NCBI GenBank assembly: GCA_017935565.1
Contig: JAGBHK010000008.1
Coordinates: 114,940-178,939, forward strand
Direction of reading: 5' to 3'
From: Lachnospiraceae bacterium
GTDB lineage: Bacteria > Bacillota > Clostridia > Lachnospirales > Lachnospiraceae
DNA length: 64,000 nt
The position numbers and the translations under genes are program-made. Every line of letters begins with the position of its first letter. Positions within the stretch are counted from its first letter, which is position 1. Positions 22,043 through 33,427 of the stretch are shown here, piece by piece. The notes beneath the pieces were generated by a model. That model had not been told where the DNA came from. It worked only from the letters and a program-made list of their open reading frames with translations, and searched no databases.

Positions 22043-22079
22043 AGAAAAAAAGTGATACAATCCGAAAATTGTATCACTT
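22043..22079 (-). terminator. Terminator of the Dlt-like operon
   Basis: Perfect 12-bp stem (22050-22061 with 22068-22079) and a U7 run on the minus strand, 12 bases after the stop of the SGNH gene. Confidence 0.85.
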
Positions 22080-22091
22080 ATATTTTATCAA

Positions 22092-23045
22092 TTAATCAAA
22101 CTTTAAACCTGACTGTTCTACGCTTTCGTCCCAAGATTTATATTTCTCATCTCCACGATGATCAACCAAATCAAATTCTGTTGAAAGATAGTTACCAAAA
22201 TATGCTGTAACCTTCTTAGCACCTTCATAGTTCATATGGTTACCACCATCTCTTGTATCCTTTGACCAATCAATACCCATTTCTTTATGAACAAAGTTCA
22301 TATCTAAATAAGTAACTCCGTGCTTAATTGCCCAATCACTTACTGTATTATACTTTGCATATGTCCAGTTAGTTGGAGCTGGTGTAGATACAAGTACAAG
22401 TTCTGCACCATTTTCCTTACAAAAATCTTTTATCTCAACCAAATAATCTTCAACAAGTCTTGCGAACTTCTTTCTCTTATCAGTCTCTTCCATCCATTCT
22501 CCACCTTTATATGGTACAATTTCTGTTCTGAGTCTGAAACCTTTTCTTATAGTTTCCTTAGAAATATGGTCACGATTATCCGGATCAACAAATTCTTTCC
22601 ATCTGTTGTGATATTGTAAAACAGGTAATAATTTAGATGCTTTATTTGTAATCTTTGCATCTGGATCCTGATCAATACCAGCATATCTGAACAAGCAGTT
22701 CGTTTCAAGAATTACAATCTTTGGTGACTGTTTTTCAAAACAACCCTGTAAAATAGTCTTAGTATCACATAAACGCTGTGCAGATGTACCACAAATATAT
22801 GATGTGATACCATAATCCTTCCAAATCTGTAAAGGACTGTATGCCGAATATGTTTCACTATCGCCTACGATTACAACATCAATAGTATCTTCTGCTTCTC
22901 TGTTGAATTCAAAAATCTTATCTTCAACATGATCAACATTATACGCTGCAACTTCTGGCTGCATAACTACTGATAAACCTATAAGTATTCCGAACAATCC
23001 TGCAAGAAATACTAAACCTCTTATAACCTTTTTTAAATTCTCCAT
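22092..23045 (-). CDS. DltD-like SGNH hydrolase-fold protein
   Basis: A 317-residue protein with an N-terminal membrane helix (about residues 8-28) and an extracytoplasmic SGNH/AlgX-like domain. The nucleophile motif is VVIVGDSETYS, and the C-terminal Asp/His pair lies in DGGNHMNYEGA. In Dlt systems DltD takes the acyl group delivered through the MBOAT channel to the teichoic acid; in alginate systems AlgJ/AlgX acetylate the polymer. It ends an operon with adenylation enzyme, decarboxylase, carrier protein and MBOAT protein, so the same part is likely. It is shorter than DltD (about 400), so the call is by fold and context. Confidence 0.8.
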   Translation of the reverse strand: MENLKKVIRGLVFLAGLFGILIGLSVVMQPEVAAYNVDHVEDKIFEFNREAEDTIDVVIVGDSETYSAYSPLQIWKDYGITSYICGTSAQRLCDTKTILQGCFEKQSPKIVILETNCLFRYAGIDQDPDAKITNKASKLLPVLQYHNRWKEFVDPDNRDHISKETIRKGFRLRTEIVPYKGGEWMEETDKRKKFARLVEDYLVEIKDFCKENGAELVLVSTPAPTNWTYAKYNTVSDWAIKHGVTYLDMNFVHKEMGIDWSKDTRDGGNHMNYEGAKKVTAYFGNYLSTEFDLVDHRGDEKYKSWDESVEQSGLKFD

Positions 23046-23070
23046 AAGTTCTTTCTCCTATACGTCCAGG

Positions 23071-24618
23071 CTAATAACCTGCGTAAATCATTTCAACTAT
23101 ACTGTAACCACTTCCGTATGCTCCGAAGATGACAACAACTATTATAGCTGCATACCAGAAAGCCCATCTTGCAGGAAGAATCCAGTGCGAAATTTTTTCT
23201 CTAAGGTCAATACCTTTTTCGCGGATAAATCCTACAACCGTAACTATTATAAGACCAATTGCCACAACAATCAAGTCTTTTTCATCCATTTTTACACTAC
23301 CAACTTTTTCAAACCATTCTGATATTCTAAAGTCAGTAATCATTTTCCAGAACATTTTAAATCCATCTGTCAATGTATTTGCTCTAAAGAACAACTCACC
23401 AACATTTACAATGATGAAAAGTTTTATTGCCTGGAATAATCTGTAACCCTTTGATTCCCTATTAATCTTTAACTTAGTTGTAAGTTTTTTAACAGGTTCT
23501 TCTGTAATATTCTCAATAAATATTAACACAAAATAGTACATTCCATAGAATATAAATGTCCAGTTTGCTCCATGCCACAAACCATTACATGACCATACGC
23601 AGAAAAGTGAAATAGTAGGTGCAACAAATTTGCTTACGTTTCTACCATACCTTTCCTTGACCTTCTTTGCATAGTTCTTAACTGGTTTTGCAAGGGATAC
23701 TGTATAAAAAATATAATCCTTGAAAAAAGTACCCAATGTGATATGTCATCTTCTCCAAAACTCTGAAGCATCTCTAGCCATAAATGGCTGGTTGAAATTC
23801 TCTGGAAGTTTAATACCAAATATTTCACCACTACCAATGATAATATCCATACAACCCGAGAACTCCATATAAAGCTGCATTGTATAGCAAAGTACACCAA
23901 ATGCAACCATTGCACCGCCCCAAGTATCATAATTATCAAAGATATTATCTACTGTAGGATACAATCTATCTGCAATTACGAGTTTCTTAAAAAGACCCCA
24001 TACAATTCTCTGATATCCGAATTTGATATTAGTGAATTTGATTCCTCTGCATTCATATAAATCATCAGCAACCTGATTAAATCTACATATAGGTCCTTCC
24101 ATAATAGTTGGGAAGAAACTTAAATACAATGCAATCTTAAGTACATTATGCTCCGCTTTTTGTGTTCCTCTATATACATCTGTCAAATATGAAATAATCT
24201 GTAATGTATAGAATGAAATACCTATTGGAATCATAAACTTAATTGGCTGATATTTCCAGTCTATAAAGTTTCCAACCACTGCCGAAACAGTTCCTCCAAA
24301 GAAATTAAGGTATTTCAATATTATCAAAATTCCAAGATTAGCAAGTATACCAAATGCTAACACTAGTCTTTTCTTTTTAGTAACAGCTTTTGCTCCACCA
24401 TTTTCTGTAAGTTCTACATTTTCAAGCCAAATGCCCACATAATGTGTTACAAATGTTGCGCCAATAATGTACACAATTAATTTTTTACTGATGATGTAAA
24501 AAAACACATAATTTGCCGCCAACAGTACAAACTTACGATATTTTTGTGGTGTTAACTGATATACTAAAATTACTATAGGTAAGAAGAGGGCAAAATAGTC
24601 TATTAAATGATAAGACAT
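23071..24618 (-). pseudogene. DltB/AlgI-like MBOAT acyltransferase split by in-frame TGA
   Basis: Two frames, 23746-24618 (290 codons) and 23071-23745, are in the same reading phase and separated only by one TGA (23746-23748). The upstream part ends ASEFWRR and the downstream part starts HITLGTFFKDY. MBOAT proteins have RRWHxxL here, so TGA stands where TGG (Trp) is expected. Read through, the product is about 515 residues, the normal length, with many membrane helices. The catalytic His in NGLWHGANWTFI lies after the stop. Both halves are otherwise intact. TGA is a true stop elsewhere in the window (484, 53504, 54075, 20172), so recoding is not general. Nonsense mutation, sequence error or local readthrough remain open. 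Confidence 0.85.
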
Positions 24619-24621
24619 CTT

Positions 24622-24852
24622 TTACGCTTCCTCTCTAAGTCTGCAAATCATCTTCCAAAGACTCTCTGCTGAATTGAAATTTTCTGCTACTAACTCCTGT
24701 GGCAATACTTCTACATCAAATGCATCCTCGATTTCAGATACAAGTGAAAGTATACCAAATGAGTCTAAAATATGATCATCAATAAGTGTTGTACATGTGT
24801 CATAATCAACACCTGGCTGTATTTCTTCTAAGATTTCAATTAATTCTTCCAT
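24622..24852 (-). CDS. Acyl/aminoacyl carrier protein (DltC-like)
   Basis: A 76-residue four-helix carrier protein. The phosphopantetheine Ser is in DDHILDSFGILSLVSEIEDAF, where the DS motif starts helix II, as in DltC and other ACPs. Acidic, as usual. It lies between the decarboxylase and the MBOAT gene, whose ATG follows its stop by a few bases. Context says it carries an amino acid, or the product of its decarboxylation, not a fatty acid. Confidence 0.9.
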   Translation of the reverse strand: MEELIEILEEIQPGVDYDTCTTLIDDHILDSFGILSLVSEIEDAFDVEVLPQELVAENFNSAESLWKMICRLREEA

Positions 24853-24869
24853 TTTCTTTCGTCTCCTTT

Positions 24870-26051
24870 TTATGAATTGATTAAATTAGTTTCTTTCATC
24901 TCTCTTGCAACTGTAAAGCCATCTTTTTCTGAATAGAATAATATCTGTGGCAATTCTCTACTTAAGAATAATGCCATACCTTCAGTTACTGAATAAGCTC
25001 CACAATTTTCAAAGATTATGCAATCTCCTTTTGATAACATTGGGAACATAGCGCCTTTTAAAATAACATCATTAACAGTACACAATGAACCACAAATGTT
25101 CCAAGGTAGGTTCTGCTCTTCTTCATTAACAGTTCCATCTGCATTTACTAACGTCAAATGAGGTCTCTTCATACCCATTATCTGTCCGTAATAATTAAGT
25201 TGATGTATACCACCATCTACTATAGCGTAATTAATATCTTCTGTATTCTTTACGTCCATAACCTTTGTAAAGTAGTATCCACAACAAGTTGCTATAAAAC
25301 GTCCCATTTCAATAGTGATATGTTCATAGGCCGTTATTCTATCAAGAAGCTCCTTAAGTCCTTCAAGTTGCTCTCTAGCATCTATAGGTGTATCTGTTTC
25401 AAAATATGTTACAGAAAGACCTGGACCATATTCTAACTCCTTGAGAGTGATACCATAAGTATCTCTTATATATATAGCATATTCTTCTAAATTAGCAAGT
25501 TCTTTTTCGACTTTTTTCAATTTTTTTTGTGTTCCGGAATAGAAATGAATTCCATAAACTTCCATTCCATCATCATCTTTGGCTTTCACAAGAACTTTTT
25601 CTAAATTTTCCTTGTCCATACCAAACTGATTTCCACTTGAAAGTCTCAAAATAACTTTTATTTTTTTATCCTGTTCTTTACATACCTTTGATAAGATATC
25701 GTAGTGTTCCATTGACTCAATGGTAAATATACCTTTTCCACCACTTATATCCATAATTCTTGTCATAGACTCATATGTTTTATTAACACCTGATACTACT
25801 ATTTTTTCAGGGTCAATGCCTGCTCTATAACAAATTTCATATTCTCCTGGTGAACAGACTTCATACTTTTCTGTATAGTCATTCATTGGCTTAATAAGGA
25901 AAGGATTTGCCTTCATAGCGTAACATGGTACCGCTCTATCGCCTAATATTTCCTTAATTAAATCCATTCTTTCTTTCAATTTATCTAAATCGAAAACATA
26001 ACTTGGAGTGGCCAAATCATTTAACACTGTTTTGAATGCATTACTTTCCAT
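24870..26051 (-). CDS. Fold-type III PLP-dependent decarboxylase (DAP/BtrK-like)
   Basis: A 393-residue enzyme of the diaminopimelate/ornithine decarboxylase family. The PLP lysine is Lys47 in CYAMKANPF; also visible are GIHFYSGTQ, the Gly-rich phosphate loop LEYGPGLSV, EMGRFIATCCGYY, and the second active-site Cys in CGSLCTVND. Family members decarboxylate free amino acids, but BtrK acts on glutamyl-carrier protein. Since this gene sits between an adenylation enzyme and a carrier protein, a carrier-bound substrate is likely (inference). The start at 26051 is chosen because GGAGG lies 5 bases upstream; it overlaps the end of the adenylation gene by 11 bases. Confidence 0.85.
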   Translation of the reverse strand: MESNAFKTVLNDLATPSYVFDLDKLKERMDLIKEILGDRAVPCYAMKANPFLIKPMNDYTEKYEVCSPGEYEICYRAGIDPEKIVVSGVNKTYESMTRIMDISGGKGIFTIESMEHYDILSKVCKEQDKKIKVILRLSSGNQFGMDKENLEKVLVKAKDDDGMEVYGIHFYSGTQKKLKKVEKELANLEEYAIYIRDTYGITLKELEYGPGLSVTYFETDTPIDAREQLEGLKELLDRITAYEHITIEMGRFIATCCGYYFTKVMDVKNTEDINYAIVDGGIHQLNYYGQIMGMKRPHLTLVNADGTVNEEEQNLPWNICGSLCTVNDVILKGAMFPMLSKGDCIIFENCGAYSVTEGMALFLSRELPQILFYSEKDGFTVAREMKETNLINS

Positions 26052-27564
26052 CTTTGCCTCCATTCTGATACAACTCTTTTAAGTATCCTCTGTCAATCTT
26101 TCCATTTTTTGTAAGTGGCATTTCCTCCACCTGCATAAATACATTAGGAACCATAAACTCAGGAACTTTTGTCTTCATATCATCGATAATTGACTTCTTA
26201 TCATCTGTTCCAACATAGAAGCAAACAACTTTATTCTTGCGCTCATCAAAGAATGTACATGCTCTTTCAACACCACATAAACTATTCAATGCTGTGTCAA
26301 TTTCTTCAAGTTCGATTCTATGTCCCATATGCTTAATCTGGAAATCTTTTCTTCCTGCAAAATACATCTGGCCATCTTCTCCATAATATGCCAAATCACC
26401 TGTGTGATAAATAAGTTCAGGGTAATTTGGATTAAGCGGATTAACTGTAAATGCCTTTGCTGTCATTTCCGGATTGTTATAATATCCAAGTGCCAACGCT
26501 GTTCCCGCAACACATACTTCACCAGAAACCTTAGGTTCTGTAACTTCTTTATTTTCATCATCAAGAAGGAATACTCTTTCATTAGGGAATGCTTCACCCA
26601 TTGGAAGTTTTTCATCTTCTGAAAATTCTCTATCCAAAATATAATAAGTACAGTTACATGTTATTTCTGTTGGTCCATAAAGATTTACAAACATTGCATT
26701 TGGATAATGGTTTCTCCACTGATTAAGCTGCTTAATTGGCATCATCTCACCACTAAACATAATCTTGTTTATAGCTGATGGAACCTTGTACTTAAGTCCG
26801 TGTAAACGATTTAATAAGCAAAGTGCCGAAACCGCCCAAATAAGTGTTGTAACCTTATTGTCTTCAAGCATGTCCACTACATTGTTAGGGAACATAAAGT
26901 ATGCTTTAGGAATAATAACAAGTGTAGCACCTGTCTTTAAACATGAATATATATCCTTAACTGAAACATCAAAATCAAATGGTGCTTGATTACCGATAAC
27001 ATCATTCTCTGTAATATTAAATATTTCAGTGAAATTATCAATAAAGTCGATTACCGAACGGTGACAAATAACAACACCCTTTGGCACACCTGTTGAACCT
27101 GATGTGAAAATTCCATACAATGGATCAGTGTTCAAACTCTGCTTTCTAATTTTTGAAAGCAAGTCCATATCCACGTCACAACCCAAATCAGAATCCATCC
27201 ATACGATTCCTTCGTATCCTGTTTCATTAAGCTTTTCCTTATGCTCTTCTTTTGTAATAACAATTTCTGGATTAAGCACTGAAAGAATCTGTTGAATTCT
27301 CTGCAATGGGAAACTTGGGTCTATTAATACATAGAAATCTCCCGCTGATACAATACCCATAAATATCTGTAATGTATCAACACTCTTCTCCATAAATACA
27401 GCCACTGGTTTGCGAGTTTCAATCTTTCTCGCAATGCATGTACCTATCTGTCTTGCTCTTGTCTGCAATTCCAAATATGTGCACTGTTTTTTCTCATCTT
27501 TTGCTGCAATTTTTTCAGGAAATCTAGCTACTGTACTATCTAGATACTCTAAAATATTATTCAT
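26041..27564 (-). CDS. Amino acid adenylation enzyme, DltA-like
   Basis: A 507-residue ANL-superfamily enzyme. Motifs in order: TSGSTGVPKGV (A3), NLYGPTEIT (A5), YHTGDLAYY (A7), GRKDFQIKHMGHRIELEEID (A8), and the catalytic Lys in LTKNGKIDRG (A10). The length and single-domain form match DltA, which activates D-alanine and loads DltC. Substrate residues cannot be read safely by eye. GAGGG precedes the chosen ATG (27564); an upstream in-frame start has no such site. It is the first gene of the operon. Confidence 0.88.
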   Translation of the reverse strand: MNNILEYLDSTVARFPEKIAAKDEKKQCTYLELQTRARQIGTCIARKIETRKPVAVFMEKSVDTLQIFMGIVSAGDFYVLIDPSFPLQRIQQILSVLNPEIVITKEEHKEKLNETGYEGIVWMDSDLGCDVDMDLLSKIRKQSLNTDPLYGIFTSGSTGVPKGVVICHRSVIDFIDNFTEIFNITENDVIGNQAPFDFDVSVKDIYSCLKTGATLVIIPKAYFMFPNNVVDMLEDNKVTTLIWAVSALCLLNRLHGLKYKVPSAINKIMFSGEMMPIKQLNQWRNHYPNAMFVNLYGPTEITCNCTYYILDREFSEDEKLPMGEAFPNERVFLLDDENKEVTEPKVSGEVCVAGTALALGYYNNPEMTAKAFTVNPLNPNYPELIYHTGDLAYYGEDGQMYFAGRKDFQIKHMGHRIELEEIDTALNSLCGVERACTFFDERKNKVVCFYVGTDDKKSIIDDMKTKVPEFMVPNVFMQVEEMPLTKNGKIDRGYLKELYQNGGKDGK

Positions 27565-27610: not shown

Positions 27611-27645
27611 AAACTCAGTTTATAACTTTATCATAAACTGAGTTT
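27611..27645. terminator. Terminator of the transglutaminase/DUF58 operon
   Basis: Perfect 13-bp stem AAACTCAGTTTAT/ATAAACTGAGTTT around a 9-base loop, with T-rich flanks. It lies just after the gene ending at 27664 and before the Dlt-like operon. Confidence 0.75.
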
Positions 27646-27663: not shown

Positions 27664-30177
27664 CTATTGGGAATTATTGCCGTCCTTAATAATTTTGCAA
27701 TAAATTTCATAACAGAAATTCATTTCCTCTTCGGTAAAATTGTTATTAGAAAATGCGCTTGCTTTCACAATTTTCATATATTTATCCCAATCTTCTTTTG
27801 AAATATCTATATAATTTTCTTTTAAAATTTCTTCATATTCTAAATCAGTTATTAAAGATTTAGAAACTTTTCCTGTAAATCTTAATTTTTTATAAATTTT
27901 TCTGTTAATAAGTTTAATAACATTTAATGTTTTCTTTTGTCTTTTTTGTTCAAGAAGATTCTTTTCTGCTTTATCTCTAACAATATAAATAATAACAATT
28001 GTAGCTGCAATCACAACAACTAAAACAATGGCAATAATAACATAAATTAAAAACTTATTAGAACTATCAGCTTTATTTGATGTTACAGCACTAGTTGTTG
28101 TTTCTTCTTCCATTTTAGTTGTAGTCTGCTCTTCTGTCTCTTTTTCAGCAGGTTTTGTTGTAGAACTTTCCTGTGGTTTTGTAGTTGAAGGTTGTGTAGC
28201 ATCAGGTCTTGTCTCTGACTGTGTCTCTTTTTCTGAAGTTTCTGTTTCCTTTTCATCTTCATCAACAATAGGACGTTTAAAATCAGAATCCCATGCTTTT
28301 TCTACATAACCTTCTGTAACCTCAACAGGCACCCAACCAATTCCTTCAAGATAAATCTCAACCCATGCGTGAGACATATTATCCATAACAGTTGCAACAT
28401 ATCTGTCATCATCATATGTAAATGTGCTGTTTGGTACCATATAACCTGTCACCATTCTTGCAGGCACACCCATTTCTCTTAAAATAAGAGTAGCCGCACT
28501 TGCATAATGAGTACAATAACCTTTTTTACTCTTACTTAAAAAGTATTCAATAGGATCTGTATCATCATCAATACTCTTAAGATTAATATTGTACTTTGTA
28601 TTTTTTTCCATCCACTGAGCAACTCTATATGCTTTAGACATACGATTATAGTTCTTTGTTGAAACTTTCATTCCATCAAATTCATCGTCACCTTCCATAT
28701 ACAGTTCTTCAGCTATTTTGCCTGCACTAGGAACATCACTAGAAATTCTAAGATATTGCTTCATTACAAAATCATTATACCAATCTTCCCATTCTAGTTC
28801 ATCTCCACTGTTTAACATAAAGATTTTTGCTTCGAATTGATCCGCAAAATACCATACCCAAAATTCAATTTCTTTTAAACTTCTTTTCTTTGATAAACAA
28901 GCATCACCTTCTGGATATATCTTATCGTCATCTATTTCAGCGAAATATGGAAAATACGCTCTTGTTCCCACAGAATTAACATACTCAATCTTAATATATT
29001 CGCCATAAGATGTATCTGTAAGACTCTCTGCATCATAGCCATCAAGAGCCTTTGATACTGGCAAAAAGTTTAATTCTTCTTTTACAGTTTCATAATCATA
29101 ACCTGCATCTTTACATGCATTTTTAAAAGATTTTTCGTCATATGTCCATTCGCCATCTTCGTAGTTGCCCACACTATAACCTTTTAAATAAACATTACCA
29201 TATGGTCTGTTATCCATTTCAACTGACAACATTTCAACATTTTGATAAACCGGTGCATCATTGGTAATCTTTTCAGTATCAGATGTTCCCAAACCAGGAA
29301 TAAGTTCCCATAAAGTTAAATCCGAAATCATATCTGTAAGATTAAGATGAAAATATCTTACTTCTTGCGAGTAATCCGTAAGTTTACTTGCCTGATTCTC
29401 GCCAACCAATTTCACGCCAAAACTTGACACCAACGCTATGGCCCCTACAAGCACCCACACATATTGTCTTATTGTTTTTTTCTTAATTTCTCCATTCACA
29501 GAAATTTGTTTAAAATCCTGCACTTTCCACGATGAAGCATTGGCCACCAAGACACCTACAAACATTAATACAAGTCCCATAATATCTGGCGATAATGAAA
29601 CAATAAATTCCATTATAAGTGCTGCAATCGGAACCAAAACAGTCACCATATTTTTTCCTGAAATCTTTGCTATACACAAGAACAAAAAAGCAAGCACTAA
29701 TGTAAGAAAGTTAATAGTTGAAGCCACAGCTGAAAAACTTCCATCTTCTACTATATAATTAGTACCATAATAATCGTTCCAATCATTTATGTAATATTCT
29801 GCTATCTTTAAGATACCACTTACAACTTCATATAAATGGTCATACACAAATAAATATAATACCACTGATACTATACCAGTAGCCATAACCGCCAGACATA
29901 ACAGATTGCATTTTACTCTTGATAAATAATAACTTATTTCAAGAACTGCACTAACTATCACTACCATAAGGACCATTACGAAAAAGCCCATTGCATCAAA
30001 TTCAGCCCATGAATATAAATCCATAAGAATAAATCTAGCCGCAGTCACAAACAAAAGTACACACACTGCATCAATAATAATCTGCGAAATAGCATGGCCG
30101 ATTATCTCTTTACGATTACCAGTTTTTAAATTGTAATTCATGGAATTATTCCATATAATTTTTTCTATCTTACTCAC
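27664..30177 (-). CDS. Membrane transglutaminase-like protein (TgpA type)
   Basis: An 837-residue protein. About six membrane helices lie in the first 260 residues, then an extracytoplasmic region with a transglutaminase core: Cys near residue 555 in KKGYCTHYASAATL, His near 603 in MSHAWVEIYLEG, and GWVPVEVTEG where the third residue is Glu rather than the usual Asp. A Thr/Lys/Glu-rich linker (about 660-715), another membrane helix and a cytoplasmic tail of about 100 residues follow. With DUF58 and MoxR genes directly upstream, it forms the widespread MoxR-DUF58-transglutaminase set, thought to act on cell-envelope proteins. The reaction is not established. Confidence 0.88.
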   Translation of the reverse strand: MSKIEKIIWNNSMNYNLKTGNRKEIIGHAISQIIIDAVCVLLFVTAARFILMDLYSWAEFDAMGFFVMVLMVVIVSAVLEISYYLSRVKCNLLCLAVMATGIVSVVLYLFVYDHLYEVVSGILKIAEYYINDWNDYYGTNYIVEDGSFSAVASTINFLTLVLAFLFLCIAKISGKNMVTVLVPIAALIMEFIVSLSPDIMGLVLMFVGVLVANASSWKVQDFKQISVNGEIKKKTIRQYVWVLVGAIALVSSFGVKLVGENQASKLTDYSQEVRYFHLNLTDMISDLTLWELIPGLGTSDTEKITNDAPVYQNVEMLSVEMDNRPYGNVYLKGYSVGNYEDGEWTYDEKSFKNACKDAGYDYETVKEELNFLPVSKALDGYDAESLTDTSYGEYIKIEYVNSVGTRAYFPYFAEIDDDKIYPEGDACLSKKRSLKEIEFWVWYFADQFEAKIFMLNSGDELEWEDWYNDFVMKQYLRISSDVPSAGKIAEELYMEGDDEFDGMKVSTKNYNRMSKAYRVAQWMEKNTKYNINLKSIDDDTDPIEYFLSKSKKGYCTHYASAATLILREMGVPARMVTGYMVPNSTFTYDDDRYVATVMDNMSHAWVEIYLEGIGWVPVEVTEGYVEKAWDSDFKRPIVDEDEKETETSEKETQSETRPDATQPSTTKPQESSTTKPAEKETEEQTTTKMEEETTTSAVTSNKADSSNKFLIYVIIAIVLVVVIAATIVIIYIVRDKAEKNLLEQKRQKKTLNVIKLINRKIYKKLRFTGKVSKSLITDLEYEEILKENYIDISKEDWDKYMKIVKASAFSNNNFTEEEMNFCYEIYCKIIKDGNNSQ

Positions 30178-30197
30178 AATTTTTCCCTTACCTGTAA

Positions 30198-31298
30198 TTA
30201 CAATAATATTTCTACCTGCGACAATGATGTAGATAAATCTTCACCAGAATACTTAGCCACAACTGTACCATTCTTTGTCAATTCTAAATTCTCATTAATG
30301 CTTAACGCATAAATAAATGGCTCATTCTTATACTCATGCTTGTATTCTTCTACAAGATCAATATCTTTTTCCTTCCACAAAACCTTCATCAATGTTCCGA
30401 TACAATAAAACATACTTTCTTCATCATCAACTCTAAGTCTGTTCATGCGTCCTTCCACACTATCGTACCACGCAACATAATGGCAACATTTTGCATCCAT
30501 AATTGAAAAAGAAATACTAACTGCTGCCTCCATAAAATCTTCAACTGCATTTTCCTTCTTTAACAATTTTTCATCGTTAAAATCAATTATCAGAACCACA
30601 GCACATGCCTTAGGCAATGATGGGTCCTTTACAACAATATCTTCCTGTTTTGCTGACATTTTCCAATGCACACTTTGTAATTTATCCCCCTTTTGATATT
30701 CACGAATTTGGAATATCTCATTGTTATCATAACCTGGAGTATGCTCGTCATAAACATTTGCTTCTCCATAAAAATTCCTTGTCCCTAATGTAATATTTAC
30801 TGGAACATAGTTTAATTTAGGAATAACTTCAATATTAACATTCATTTTTCTTCTTATATCAATATGAAACAATCCTGTGACATCATAAATTCGTATTTTT
30901 TTTGAATGAACTTCATATTCACCAAACTTCTCAAAAAAAACATTACTTCCAAAACTTGATACCCCTTTATGTGCGCCAGACATATTCATAATATATTTAT
31001 TCTTTCTACCCGACATAACATTAACTATTCTTAAATAGGCTTTCATTCTTGTAACAGGAATAAAACAATTGTTATACACATTAATCTTCACCAAATTGCC
31101 TTTTCCAGTTTCTGCAATGCCTACAGGGACACTAAGGTCATATTTCAAAGTAATTTTTTGATAAATTGCCCATATTGCAGACACGACAAAAAGTGTTGCT
31201 TCCATAAATCCTAGCAACACAATCGCCTCATTCTCATATAAAATCCCTGCATATACAGTTAATACTATTACTATAAGAAATCTCAAAAAACTAAACAC
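30198..31298 (-). CDS. DUF58 domain protein
   Basis: A 366-residue protein with two N-terminal membrane helices (about residues 4-45), a beta-rich middle part, and the DUF58 signature IREYQKGDKLQSVHWKMSA followed by VVKD. The end has a von Willebrand A-like pattern without a full MIDAS. The family usually pairs with MoxR ATPases, as here; the MoxR stop and the DUF58 start overlap by 8 bases. It probably bridges the ATPase and the transglutaminase-like partner at the membrane. Confidence 0.9.
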   Translation of the reverse strand: MFSFLRFLIVIVLTVYAGILYENEAIVLLGFMEATLFVVSAIWAIYQKITLKYDLSVPVGIAETGKGNLVKINVYNNCFIPVTRMKAYLRIVNVMSGRKNKYIMNMSGAHKGVSSFGSNVFFEKFGEYEVHSKKIRIYDVTGLFHIDIRRKMNVNIEVIPKLNYVPVNITLGTRNFYGEANVYDEHTPGYDNNEIFQIREYQKGDKLQSVHWKMSAKQEDIVVKDPSLPKACAVVLIIDFNDEKLLKKENAVEDFMEAAVSISFSIMDAKCCHYVAWYDSVEGRMNRLRVDDEESMFYCIGTLMKVLWKEKDIDLVEEYKHEYKNEPFIYALSINENLELTKNGTVVAKYSGEDLSTSLSQVEILL

Positions 31299-32250
31299 TA
31301 TACTCCGCCTTCTGCATATAAGATGCTGGTTGTTTTACTACTGAAACAATTTCATTCAAAACTGCCTGTGGTGTAACATGAGCAACTCTTGCCTTTGTAT
31401 TTAACTGAATTCTGTGTTTTGCCACATCAAAGAATATATTAACAACATCCTCTGGCAACACATAGTTTCTTCCCTGTAAATATGCCCATGCTTTAGCCAT
31501 TTTCACTGTAGCCATTGACCCTCTTGTACTCAATCCCAAATCAATGTAACCATGTTGTCTTGTTGCCTGAGAAAGCAATGTAATATACGCTAATACCTTT
31601 TCATCAACAAATACTTTTTCTACAGCTTCTTTCATACCAATTAACTGTTCTTTATCAAGAATAGCGTTAACATTTTCTATATTAGAAGAGTTTCTTCCCT
31701 TTAATATTTCAATCTCATTATTAATATCCGGATATCCCATACTTAAACTAATCATAAAACGGTCAAGCTGAGATTCAGGTAACATTTGAGTACCAGAACT
31801 TCCCTTTGGATTCTGTGTAGCCATTACGATAAACGGACTTGGAACATTTCTACTTGTTCCATCCACTGTAACCTTGCCTTCTTCCATTACTTCAAGCAAA
31901 GCCGACTGTGTCTTTGGTGAAGTTCTGTTAATTTCGTCTGCAAGGAAAAGGTTACACATAATAGCACCATTATAATATACAAACTGACCTGTTTCCTTCT
32001 GATACATATTAAACCCTACAATATCTGCAGGCATAACGTCAGGTGTAAACTGCATTCTCTTATTATCTAACGATAAAGCCTTAGAAAATGCCATAGCCAA
32101 TGTAGTTTTTCCAACACCTGGAACGTCTTCAATTAATATATGTCCTCCCGCCAATATTGTTGCAAAAGTCTTACAGATACATTCATCCTTACCTGTAACC
32201 GCCTTTTTTACTTCCTCAATTACTTTGTTTGCTGTTTCATTAAAAACCAC
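31291..32250 (-). CDS. MoxR-family AAA+ ATPase
   Basis: A 319-residue AAA+ protein with Walker A DVPGVGKTTLA, Walker B LFLADEINRTSPKTQSALLE, sensor 1 MATQNP and the arginine finger region LPESQLDRFM. MoxR proteins act as chaperones that activate partners, typically those next door (DUF58). I chose the GTG at 32250: GGAGGAG lies 6 bases upstream, and this gives the family length. An upstream in-frame start at 32367 would run inside the glycosyltransferase gene. Confidence 0.92.
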   Translation of the reverse strand: MVFNETANKVIEEVKKAVTGKDECICKTFATILAGGHILIEDVPGVGKTTLAMAFSKALSLDNKRMQFTPDVMPADIVGFNMYQKETGQFVYYNGAIMCNLFLADEINRTSPKTQSALLEVMEEGKVTVDGTSRNVPSPFIVMATQNPKGSSGTQMLPESQLDRFMISLSMGYPDINNEIEILKGRNSSNIENVNAILDKEQLIGMKEAVEKVFVDEKVLAYITLLSQATRQHGYIDLGLSTRGSMATVKMAKAWAYLQGRNYVLPEDVVNIFFDVAKHRIQLNTKARVAHVTPQAVLNEIVSVVKQPASYMQKAEYSV

Positions 32251-32266
32251 TTTTTTCTCCTCCTGC

Positions 32267-33427
32267 TTACTTATCTTTCTTGTTTTCCTCAATATACTTT
32301 GTATATATCTCAACTGCATTCTTTGCAAAAGTTTTTGATGAATATCTTTCTGCAGTTTCCAACGCATTTACAGAAAGTTTTTCCTTCTCTTCTTTTGATA
32401 TATTAACATATTTTGTTAATTTTTCTATAAATTCATCTGCAGTTTCATACTGCCATCCATTATAGCCTTCAATAACTAATTCATTTAAACAATCATCTTT
32501 CTTACACAATATAGGTAAACCTGATGCTAAAGCTTCTACGTAAGTCAACCCTTGAGTTTCACTAGTTGAACCGCATACGAATAAATTTCCTGCTCTATAA
32601 TACTTTGGAACCTCAGTAGGCAATACCATCCCAACGAAATTAAATCTATGGTTATTAGGCAATTTCTTTGCCTTTTCTTCTAAATTTTCACGATAAGGAC
32701 CATCTCCTACAATCATTAACTTAACATCTTTTTCCATTTTAGATACTATTCGCATAATCTCAATAGTATTCTTTTCCTTAGCAAGTCTACCAATGGCTGC
32801 AAGAACAATTTCATCCTCTTTATATCCCATTGACTTTCTAATCGTTTTACCACAATCATCCAGCCCTTCCTCTTGAAACTTGTCCAACACAATTCCCGTA
32901 GGAAGTACATGAATAGGTTTCTTAATCTTATATCCTTCAAGTAAAGTCTTAACCTTAGCTGTAGGAACAATCATTGCATCACATTTCTTCGCAACATTTC
33001 TAGAAAGATTAGACACAATTGTTCTTCCGATAATTCTAGATGGTACAATGTAATGAGTATAATCTTCATAAACTGTGTGATATGTATGAACGAGTGGAAT
33101 ATTAAGTTCTTTTGATATCCTCTTTGCAAATGCAAATGTACTAAATTCACACTGCGAATGTACAACCTCTGGTCCCCATTCTTCAATGTGTCTCATAACT
33201 TTTTTCATCCTTTTTGCGCGCAATCTAGCCTCTGGATAAATGTGGTCAGCACTTACAGAACCAATATAGTAAACATTATCCTTCTTATATGTTTTAAAAG
33301 TTGACGATAATGTAACAATTCGTACTTCATGACCTTGTTTAATTAATTCATCTCTTAAATTCTGTATTGATGTAACAACACCATTAACCGTTGGCAAATA
33401 CCAATCGCTCGTAATAAGCACTTTCAT
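32267..33427 (-). CDS. GT4 glycosyltransferase (diacylglycerol glucosyltransferase type)
   Basis: A 386-residue GT-B enzyme. The N-terminus VLITSDWYLPTVNGVVTSI, the acceptor-side EARLR, and the donor-side GRLAKEKN with the E-x7-E in STSETQGLTYVEALASGLP match GT4 enzymes that use UDP-glucose, among them the 1,2-diacylglycerol 3-glucosyltransferases making glycolipid anchors. Exact acceptor unknown. The start at 33427 is preceded by GGAG; an earlier in-frame start is not. It is followed by MoxR, with 16 bases between. Confidence 0.88.
   Translation of the reverse strand: MKVLITSDWYLPTVNGVVTSIQNLRDELIKQGHEVRIVTLSSTFKTYKKDNVYYIGSVSADHIYPEARLRAKRMKKVMRHIEEWGPEVVHSQCEFSTFAFAKRISKELNIPLVHTYHTVYEDYTHYIVPSRIIGRTIVSNLSRNVAKKCDAMIVPTAKVKTLLEGYKIKKPIHVLPTGIVLDKFQEEGLDDCGKTIRKSMGYKEDEIVLAAIGRLAKEKNTIEIMRIVSKMEKDVKLMIVGDGPYRENLEEKAKKLPNNHRFNFVGMVLPTEVPKYYRAGNLFVCGSTSETQGLTYVEALASGLPILCKKDDCLNELVIEGYNGWQYETADEFIEKLTKYVNISKEEKEKLSVNALETAERYSSKTFAKNAVEIYTKYIEENKKDK

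Follow-up and report, generated by a model that had tools for sequence, protein, structure and literature searches.

A dlt-related operon with a built-in decarboxylase in a Lachnospiraceae bacterium, a candidate system for placing decarboxylated acidic amino acids on the cell envelope

We analysed a window of 64,000 nucleotides from a Lachnospiraceae bacterium (assembly GCA_017935565.1, contig JAGBHK010000008.1, positions 114,940 to 178,939), in which five genes follow each other on the minus strand at 22092-27564: a loader, a fold-III pyridoxal phosphate (PLP) decarboxylase, a carrier protein, an MBOAT protein and an SGNH protein. This cassette, of a type present in many gut bacteria, is a relative of the D-alanylation (dlt) operon with an extra decarboxylase, which probably trims an acidic amino acid bound to the carrier. 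In full, the account that we favour, and which we hold to be reasonably likely, is that of a dlt-related, carrier-fed envelope acylation operon, in which an acidic amino acid loaded through its side chain would be decarboxylated on the carrier and exported as gamma-aminobutyric acid (GABA) or beta-alanine. It draws on sequence comparisons and on analogy with known systems. A previous, sequence-only reading of the locus had given these genes with this strand and order, and all five were located there. It had also proposed that an amino acid is loaded, decarboxylated on the carrier and placed on the envelope as an amine-bearing acyl group; this proposal is supported, and the tests set for its refutation did not refute it.

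Four steps are envisaged. The loader would adenylate Glu or Asp and load the carrier through the side-chain carboxylate. With the amino acid still on the carrier, the decarboxylase would then remove its free alpha-carboxylate, so that Glu would yield GABA-carrier and Asp beta-alanyl-carrier. Because fold-III PLP decarboxylases remove the alpha-carboxylate, the amino acid would have to hang by its side chain. The MBOAT protein would next draw the aminoacyl group off the carrier and onto the Tyr in the hexapeptide at its own C-terminus. The membrane-anchored SGNH protein would accept the group on its GDS serine and hand it over to an envelope glycan, which would thereby gain a cationic amine. 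These steps differ in firmness. An acidic amino acid as loader substrate is fairly strongly indicated by the pocket lysine and by related operons. Decarboxylation on the carrier is moderately likely, given the active-site motif, the linkage of the genes and the examples set by VinN/VinL/VinO and BtrK. Transfer to the MBOAT Tyr is suggested by PatA and DltX, the motif itself being observed, and an envelope glycan is a moderately likely acceptor.

The loader gene (26041..27564, minus strand, with an ATG start and a TTG upstream at 27612) encodes a DltA-like AMP-forming aminoacyl-carrier ligase. Its product scored 341.6 bits against the AA-adenyl-dom model, above the cut-off, and 313.1 bits against the DltA equivalog TIGR01734, below the cut-off of 559.85. 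No protein in the 61 relatives searched passed the DltA cut-off. In a tree of 67 chosen rows, six DltA-type rows formed a clade (SH-aLRT 100) that excludes the window loader; nine DltA-type loci were available (501-565 bits, two above the cut-off), of which only the six on the plus strand were used, and of these only L085 is above the cut-off. The pocket code, read from the core motifs, is D V K S M S L C N; its third letter is Lys203, which corresponds to position 239 in the GrsA numbering used for the pocket. The DltA-type rows had the codes DLMSLCTVA and DLMSLCTVC (nearest rows), DLASVVGVA and DLSSLIGVG. With the cut-off missed, a different pocket code and a position apart from the DltA-type clade, the loader is not an ordinary D-Ala DltA; had it been one, this would have refuted the sequence-only reading by its own criterion. 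A surfactin domain code with Lys in third place, DAKDLGVV, is predicted for Glu/Asp (PMC10548584).

Codes were then compared between loci; 7 of 143 loci gave none, having no loader in the stretch or one identical to a loader already included, and L207-L209 were excluded. Among the decarboxylase loci with a readable code (n = 70, window included), 63 had DVKS..CN, five IARSCSQAS, one DAKSAVLGV and one another code. The 66 loader loci without decarboxylase, 60 of which were extra loci from the top of the match list and not a random sample, had a DAK code in 33 cases, DVKS..CN in 9, an SM code in 9 and others in 15. An Asp/Glu-type racemase gene was found at 26 of the 33 DAK-code loci, and at none of the 33 other loci without decarboxylase (tailoring genes, here and below, were counted anywhere in the fetched stretch, with no filter for strand or distance). 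The one racemase representative that was scanned matched PF01177 and passed both the amino acid racemase and the cysteate racemase cut-offs; Asp, Glu and cysteate are all acidic. Since DAK loaders adjoin Asp/Glu-type racemase genes, the pocket lysine appears to go with an acidic substrate, and this is independent support. Loaders of this kind were present in 144 of 348 genomes of the family.

The IARSCSQAS loaders (L075, L162, L184, L185 and L187) make up a separate decarboxylase-linked group, with Ile for Asp and Arg for Lys. At L202, L203, L213, L215, L242, L251, L258, L262 and L263, loaders with an SM..LALDI code lack the amine-binding Asp, and perhaps load acids without an amine at that site. 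The source genome itself has a second Dlt-like set (L068, G000:C21:22000-34000), with a carrier-like protein, an MBOAT, an SGNH protein and a loader; this set lacks the decarboxylase, and its loader is a distant one (code DAKYFVLGS, 104 bits).

The decarboxylase gene (24870..26063, minus strand) gave Orn_Arg_deC_N and Orn_DAP_Arg_deC matches. Its product scored 171.8 bits against the lysA equivalog, short of the cut-off of 297.9; the best LysA match of this genome is a different gene (269.5 bits, also below the cut-off). The PLP lysine picked out earlier as Lys47 was indeed found in 106 of 106 relatives in the alignment column (a strict pattern matched only 54 of 76), but its number is 51 when counted from the first ATG. 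The active-site Cys that had also been recognised is C328 in C-T-V-N-D, and is Cys in 105 of 106 relatives. The motif following it is C[TS]..D in 105 of 106 relatives, and likewise in BtrK, SbnH and five plasmid-borne references, whereas LysA rows had CE..D in 17 of 17 cases. In a tree made with 53 of 131 rows, cassette enzymes formed one clade (n = 26, support 99/98) and LysA another (n = 17, 99/100), while BtrK grouped with the plasmid references (94/89); L200 and L208, labelled as cassette members in this tree but without a recognised loader, were both placed beside LysA. Because the cut-off is missed, the motif is CT..D and not CE..D, and the clade is separate, we conclude that the decarboxylase is not LysA and, on sequence grounds, that it appears to be a branch parallel to BtrK. 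Grouping with free-substrate LysA, which had been set beforehand as an outcome against the proposal, is thus not what was found. Of the suggested kinship with BtrK, the separation from LysA stands, but the enzyme did not nest with BtrK in the tree, being in a clade of its own with a BtrK-like motif. A further arrangement was seen at L174:3913-7257: in a single open frame of 1114 aa, the decarboxylase is fused to parts that, judged by eye, resemble a membrane segment, Ig-like repeats and a transglutaminase-like end; the L174 loader has a DAK code.

It could be argued that the decarboxylase uses a free amino acid and that the loader activates the product, for example Glu turned into GABA, followed by GABA loading. 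Many fold-III relatives take free substrates, and among solved relatives an Aquifex LysA has the highest score, 99 bits, with SbnH at 92 and BtrK at 87. We nevertheless find this order of events unlikely, as the pocket lysine seems to fit an acidic substrate and not a ready-made omega-amino acid, CT..D stands in place of CE..D, and the decarboxylase is closely tied to the loader and carrier genes; by analogy, VinN accepts the acid and not the decarboxylated amino acid, according to PMC11284099. Another substrate, meso-diaminopimelate, might be loaded by one end and decarboxylated at the other, so that lysyl groups would be exported. LysA is related to the decarboxylase (172 bits) and the activated end would stay untouched, but in 105 of 106 relatives a Thr or Ser follows the active-site Cys where LysA has Glu, and with further support not found we consider this route very unlikely.

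Decarboxylation of a carrier-bound acidic amino acid, the order that we prefer, is also consistent with the way the genes are kept together. The decarboxylase was present (E <= 1e-40) in 76 of 348 Lachnospiraceae genomes, source genome included, and (E <= 1e-30) in 4 of 299 genomes spread over the phylum; scanning the genome collection with a pattern turned up 25 loci, of which 8 are in Treponema. At 76 decarboxylase loci in other genomes, we counted neighbours on the same strand and within 6.5 kb, keeping in the total those loci that are cut by a contig end. The loader was found at 73 loci, the carrier at 71, the MBOAT at 61, a recognised SGNH protein at 50, and all five genes at 46. With A for loader, B for decarboxylase, C for carrier, D for MBOAT and E for SGNH, the gene orders were ABCDE at 30 loci, ABCD at 9, DEABC at 9 and ABC at 7, plus others. 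As the orders differ, the tie between these genes is more than that of one inherited block. The expectation that the neighbourhood is kept in other genomes was therefore borne out, the loader being beside the decarboxylase at 73 of 76 loci with varying orders, a linkage beyond chance.

The same counts bear on whether this is an ordinary dlt operon into which a LysA gene was inserted by chance. The other four genes are generally like dltABCD, but the DltA, DltC, DltB and LysA equivalog cut-offs are all missed, the pocket code is different and the linkage is conserved, which makes such an insertion extremely improbable. An ordinary LysA and an ordinary DltA were both ruled out by cut-offs, motif, trees and linkage. 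Another proposal is that the loader, carrier and decarboxylase serve an intracellular product, a sugar or small molecule, and that the MBOAT and SGNH genes adjoin for another reason. In its favour, no MBOAT was recognised beside 15 of the 76 loci, related loaders are also found near sugar-type genes without MBOAT, and a Paracoccus trio (L094) lies among glycosyltransferase genes with no MBOAT annotated. However, the MBOAT is present at 61 of 76 loci and may precede or follow the trio, contig ends truncate some of the 15, and the order A C D E is likewise seen with most related loaders that lack the decarboxylase. An intracellular role is quite unlikely in our opinion, and we return to the envelope acylation system.

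The carrier (24622..24852, minus strand, 76 aa) has a DSF motif, and scored 30 bits against the DltC equivalog (cut-off 68) and 32.6 against the AmcB carrier model (cut-off 80), below both. In relatives, the pattern D-S-hydrophobic was present in 56 of 72 carriers and a looser pattern in 62 of 72; in the three misses listed for the looser one, the Ser is kept as SS or NS. The SGNH protein (22092..23045, minus strand), DltD/PatB-like, has a single N-terminal helix and a GDS serine, and its Ser63, Asp266 and His270 were invariant across 30 rows. An SGNH fold was seen, PatB-like; DltD was not in the fold list, which excludes nothing. Among long SGNH-like frames at the loci, 32 of 49 had both the GDS-like and the D.G.H patterns.

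The MBOAT gene (23071..24618, minus strand, PF03062), whose frame ends in MIYAGY, is interrupted by an in-frame TGA at codon 291 (23746..23748). This stop, overlooked in the sequence-only reading, precedes the WHG histidine and the C-terminal shuttle motif, and the position is open in related MBOAT frames. The two pieces scored 89.7 and 30.4 bits against the LTA_dltB model (cut-off 375), and the intact, open MBOAT of L018 (516 aa) also missed this DltB equivalog cut-off, with 137.7 bits. Compared with three relatives, the pN/pS ratio (nonsynonymous to synonymous differences) was 0.27-0.31 before the stop and 0.20-0.25 after it, with synonymous sites near saturation. An old pseudogene is not likely, constraint being similar on both sides; since constraint is alike before and after it, the stop is, from these comparisons, either a recent event or an assembly error (the source assembly has 45 contigs and is 81% complete). 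Because of the stop, the export part is probably off in this genome, and our functional reading of the system is drawn from intact relatives and not from the window MBOAT. At the inspected loci, all 62 complete MBOAT frames (62/62) end in x[IVLM]Yxx[FY] and contain WHG. This ending resembles the FXYXXF shuttle motif of PatA and DltX; as described in PMC12148441, the Tyr of that motif is acylated by PatA, and in Dlt the motif is carried on DltX.

The cassette can be set against several known systems. Like Dlt (DltA, DltC, DltB, DltD and DltX, for teichoic acid D-alanylation), it has loader, carrier, MBOAT and SGNH genes in one operon and, judged by gene content, a carrier thioester as acyl donor. 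It differs by its extra decarboxylase, its non-DltA loader pocket and the missed family cut-offs, and by a hexapeptide fused to the MBOAT in place of a DltX microprotein (no microprotein search was made at the cassette). With MBOAT-SGNH pairs of the PatA/PatB type it shares the Tyr hexapeptide at the MBOAT C-terminus and an SGNH partner of PatB-like fold, but it has in addition a carrier and a loader; MBOAT-SGNH pathways other than Dlt are without carrier protein and use acyl-CoA, according to PMC12148441. The cassette would thus join a Dlt-like carrier to a PatA-like fused shuttle. For the first steps, the nearest parallel is the VinN/VinL/VinO trio and related macrolactam starter-unit trios, made of an adenylation enzyme, a stand-alone carrier and a PLP decarboxylase, with decarboxylation proposed to follow loading. 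On the way to vicenistatin, 3-methylaspartate is attached to VinL by VinN, and only after this obligatory loading does VinO decarboxylate it (PMC11284099). VinN/VinL/VinO feed a polyketide synthase, whereas in the cassette MBOAT and SGNH genes come next; the likeness is one of gene content and proposed logic.

In butirosin synthesis (BtrJ/BtrI/BtrK), BtrK has the same fold and LCT..D, and acts on a glutamyl carrier protein, its PDB name being L-glutamyl-[BtrI acyl-carrier protein] decarboxylase; it lies outside the cassette clade, and BtrJ is reportedly a ligase of another kind than the cassette loader. Finally, the exosortase A-associated ligase and decarboxylase (TIGR03098 and TIGR03099) also bring together an AMP ligase, a carrier and a PLP decarboxylase, among polysaccharide genes, but the window proteins are below both cut-offs (214.2 bits for 592.35, and 161.8 for 478.45). 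The Paracoccus locus scores close to these two models.

Several observations weigh against our proposal. The MBOAT of this very genome is interrupted, and the hexapeptide is not specific to the cassette, being found also on MBOATs of other loci, including two more in this genome. In Treponema, the loader adjoins the decarboxylase in 8 of 8 loci, but a carrier was recognised in only 2 of 8. The DVKS..CN code occurs in 9 of 66 loci without decarboxylase (five with a formyltransferase gene, four without any searched tailoring gene); therefore, this code does not require a decarboxylase. Conversely, the five IARSCSQAS loci have a decarboxylase and lack the usual amine-binding Asp. The CT..D motif does not prove carrier binding: a carrier gene is annotated beside two of the plasmid-borne references, but none near L100, which has the motif, and SbnH shares it yet reportedly acts on a small-molecule conjugate. 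Lastly, the tree does not join BtrK to the cassette enzymes, and its forks between groups are weak (87/68, 84/84).

Loci without decarboxylase have other genes in the corresponding place. A formyltransferase gene is found beside the carrier in 5 of the 9 DVKS loci without decarboxylase (PF00551 in the four scanned): it stands between loader and carrier at L217:3556-4440, L235:6322-7188, L248:3822-4703 and L249:3448-4302, and next to the carrier, with a DVKS loader, at L265:2-850. At L201:6195-6989 and L221:6192-7055, the place between loader and carrier is taken by a GNAT acetyltransferase gene. In the loader tree, racemase, SM and decarboxylase loaders are mostly in separate groups, and 4 of 5 formyltransferase loaders share a group with one decarboxylase loader, adjacent to the main decarboxylase group. 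From this, the tailoring step between loader and carrier looks swappable. The racemase-linked loci (L219 and L223-L228 among them, for example L223:6203-6922) perhaps decorate the surface with a D-acidic amino acid; a lipoprotein-like gene was seen at 24, and an Ig/transglutaminase-type gene at 25, of the DAK/racemase-type loci. More generally, Lachnospiraceae might possess a large class of Dlt-like envelope acylation systems which tailor an amino acid before or on the carrier and then export it, by decarboxylation, by N-formylation or N-acetylation, or as a D-acidic amino acid from a linked racemase, the tailoring gene setting a cationic, neutral or acidic surface charge. We regard the case for this generalisation as about evenly balanced.

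Coming back to the window, terminator-like hairpins were found after the last gene (22050..22079, minus strand, 13 pairs and a T run) and before the loader (27611..27645, minus strand, 16 pairs); the latter overlaps a promoter-like site TTGACA/TAAAGT (27653-27625, minus strand). The whole stretch has 4 such hairpins for 1.6 expected, and its sigma-70 promoter-like sites are no more frequent than chance predicts (28, for 29.2 expected). The overlap of 11 bases reported between loader and decarboxylase holds if the latter starts at its second ATG (26051), and becomes 23 bases from the first ATG (26063). The second ATG is preceded by a GGAGG-like stretch and is the better-spaced start.

Upstream, genes on the same strand (27664-32367) encode a transglutaminase-core membrane protein and, by eye, DUF58-like and MoxR-like proteins; considered as parts of the system, these three gave 0 matches at the fetched loci of other genomes and were therefore not counted among its components. 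The cassettes are repeatedly flanked by genes for signalling proteins, most of which share the strand of the cassette: of 90 loci, 29 have a GGDEF/HD/response-regulator cluster and 22 a Cache-histidine kinase cluster (examples are L075:3-2132 and L030:732-3290; flank clusters were built by single linkage, and a single representative of each was scanned). The evidence neither supports nor excludes teichoic acid as acceptor, and we name no polymer because the recurrent flanking genes are those of signalling proteins.

In the listed titles and abstract starts of open-licence papers, no description of this gene combination, or of GABA on envelope polymers, was found, which does not show that the system is unpublished. 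Textbooks present Dlt D-alanylation as the means by which Gram-positive bacteria adjust the charge of their surface. If our proposal is true, the envelopes of common gut and rumen bacteria would carry GABA, beta-alanine or further tailored amino acids that nobody has sought, and each operon type would predict one chemical group, which could be checked by mass spectrometry.

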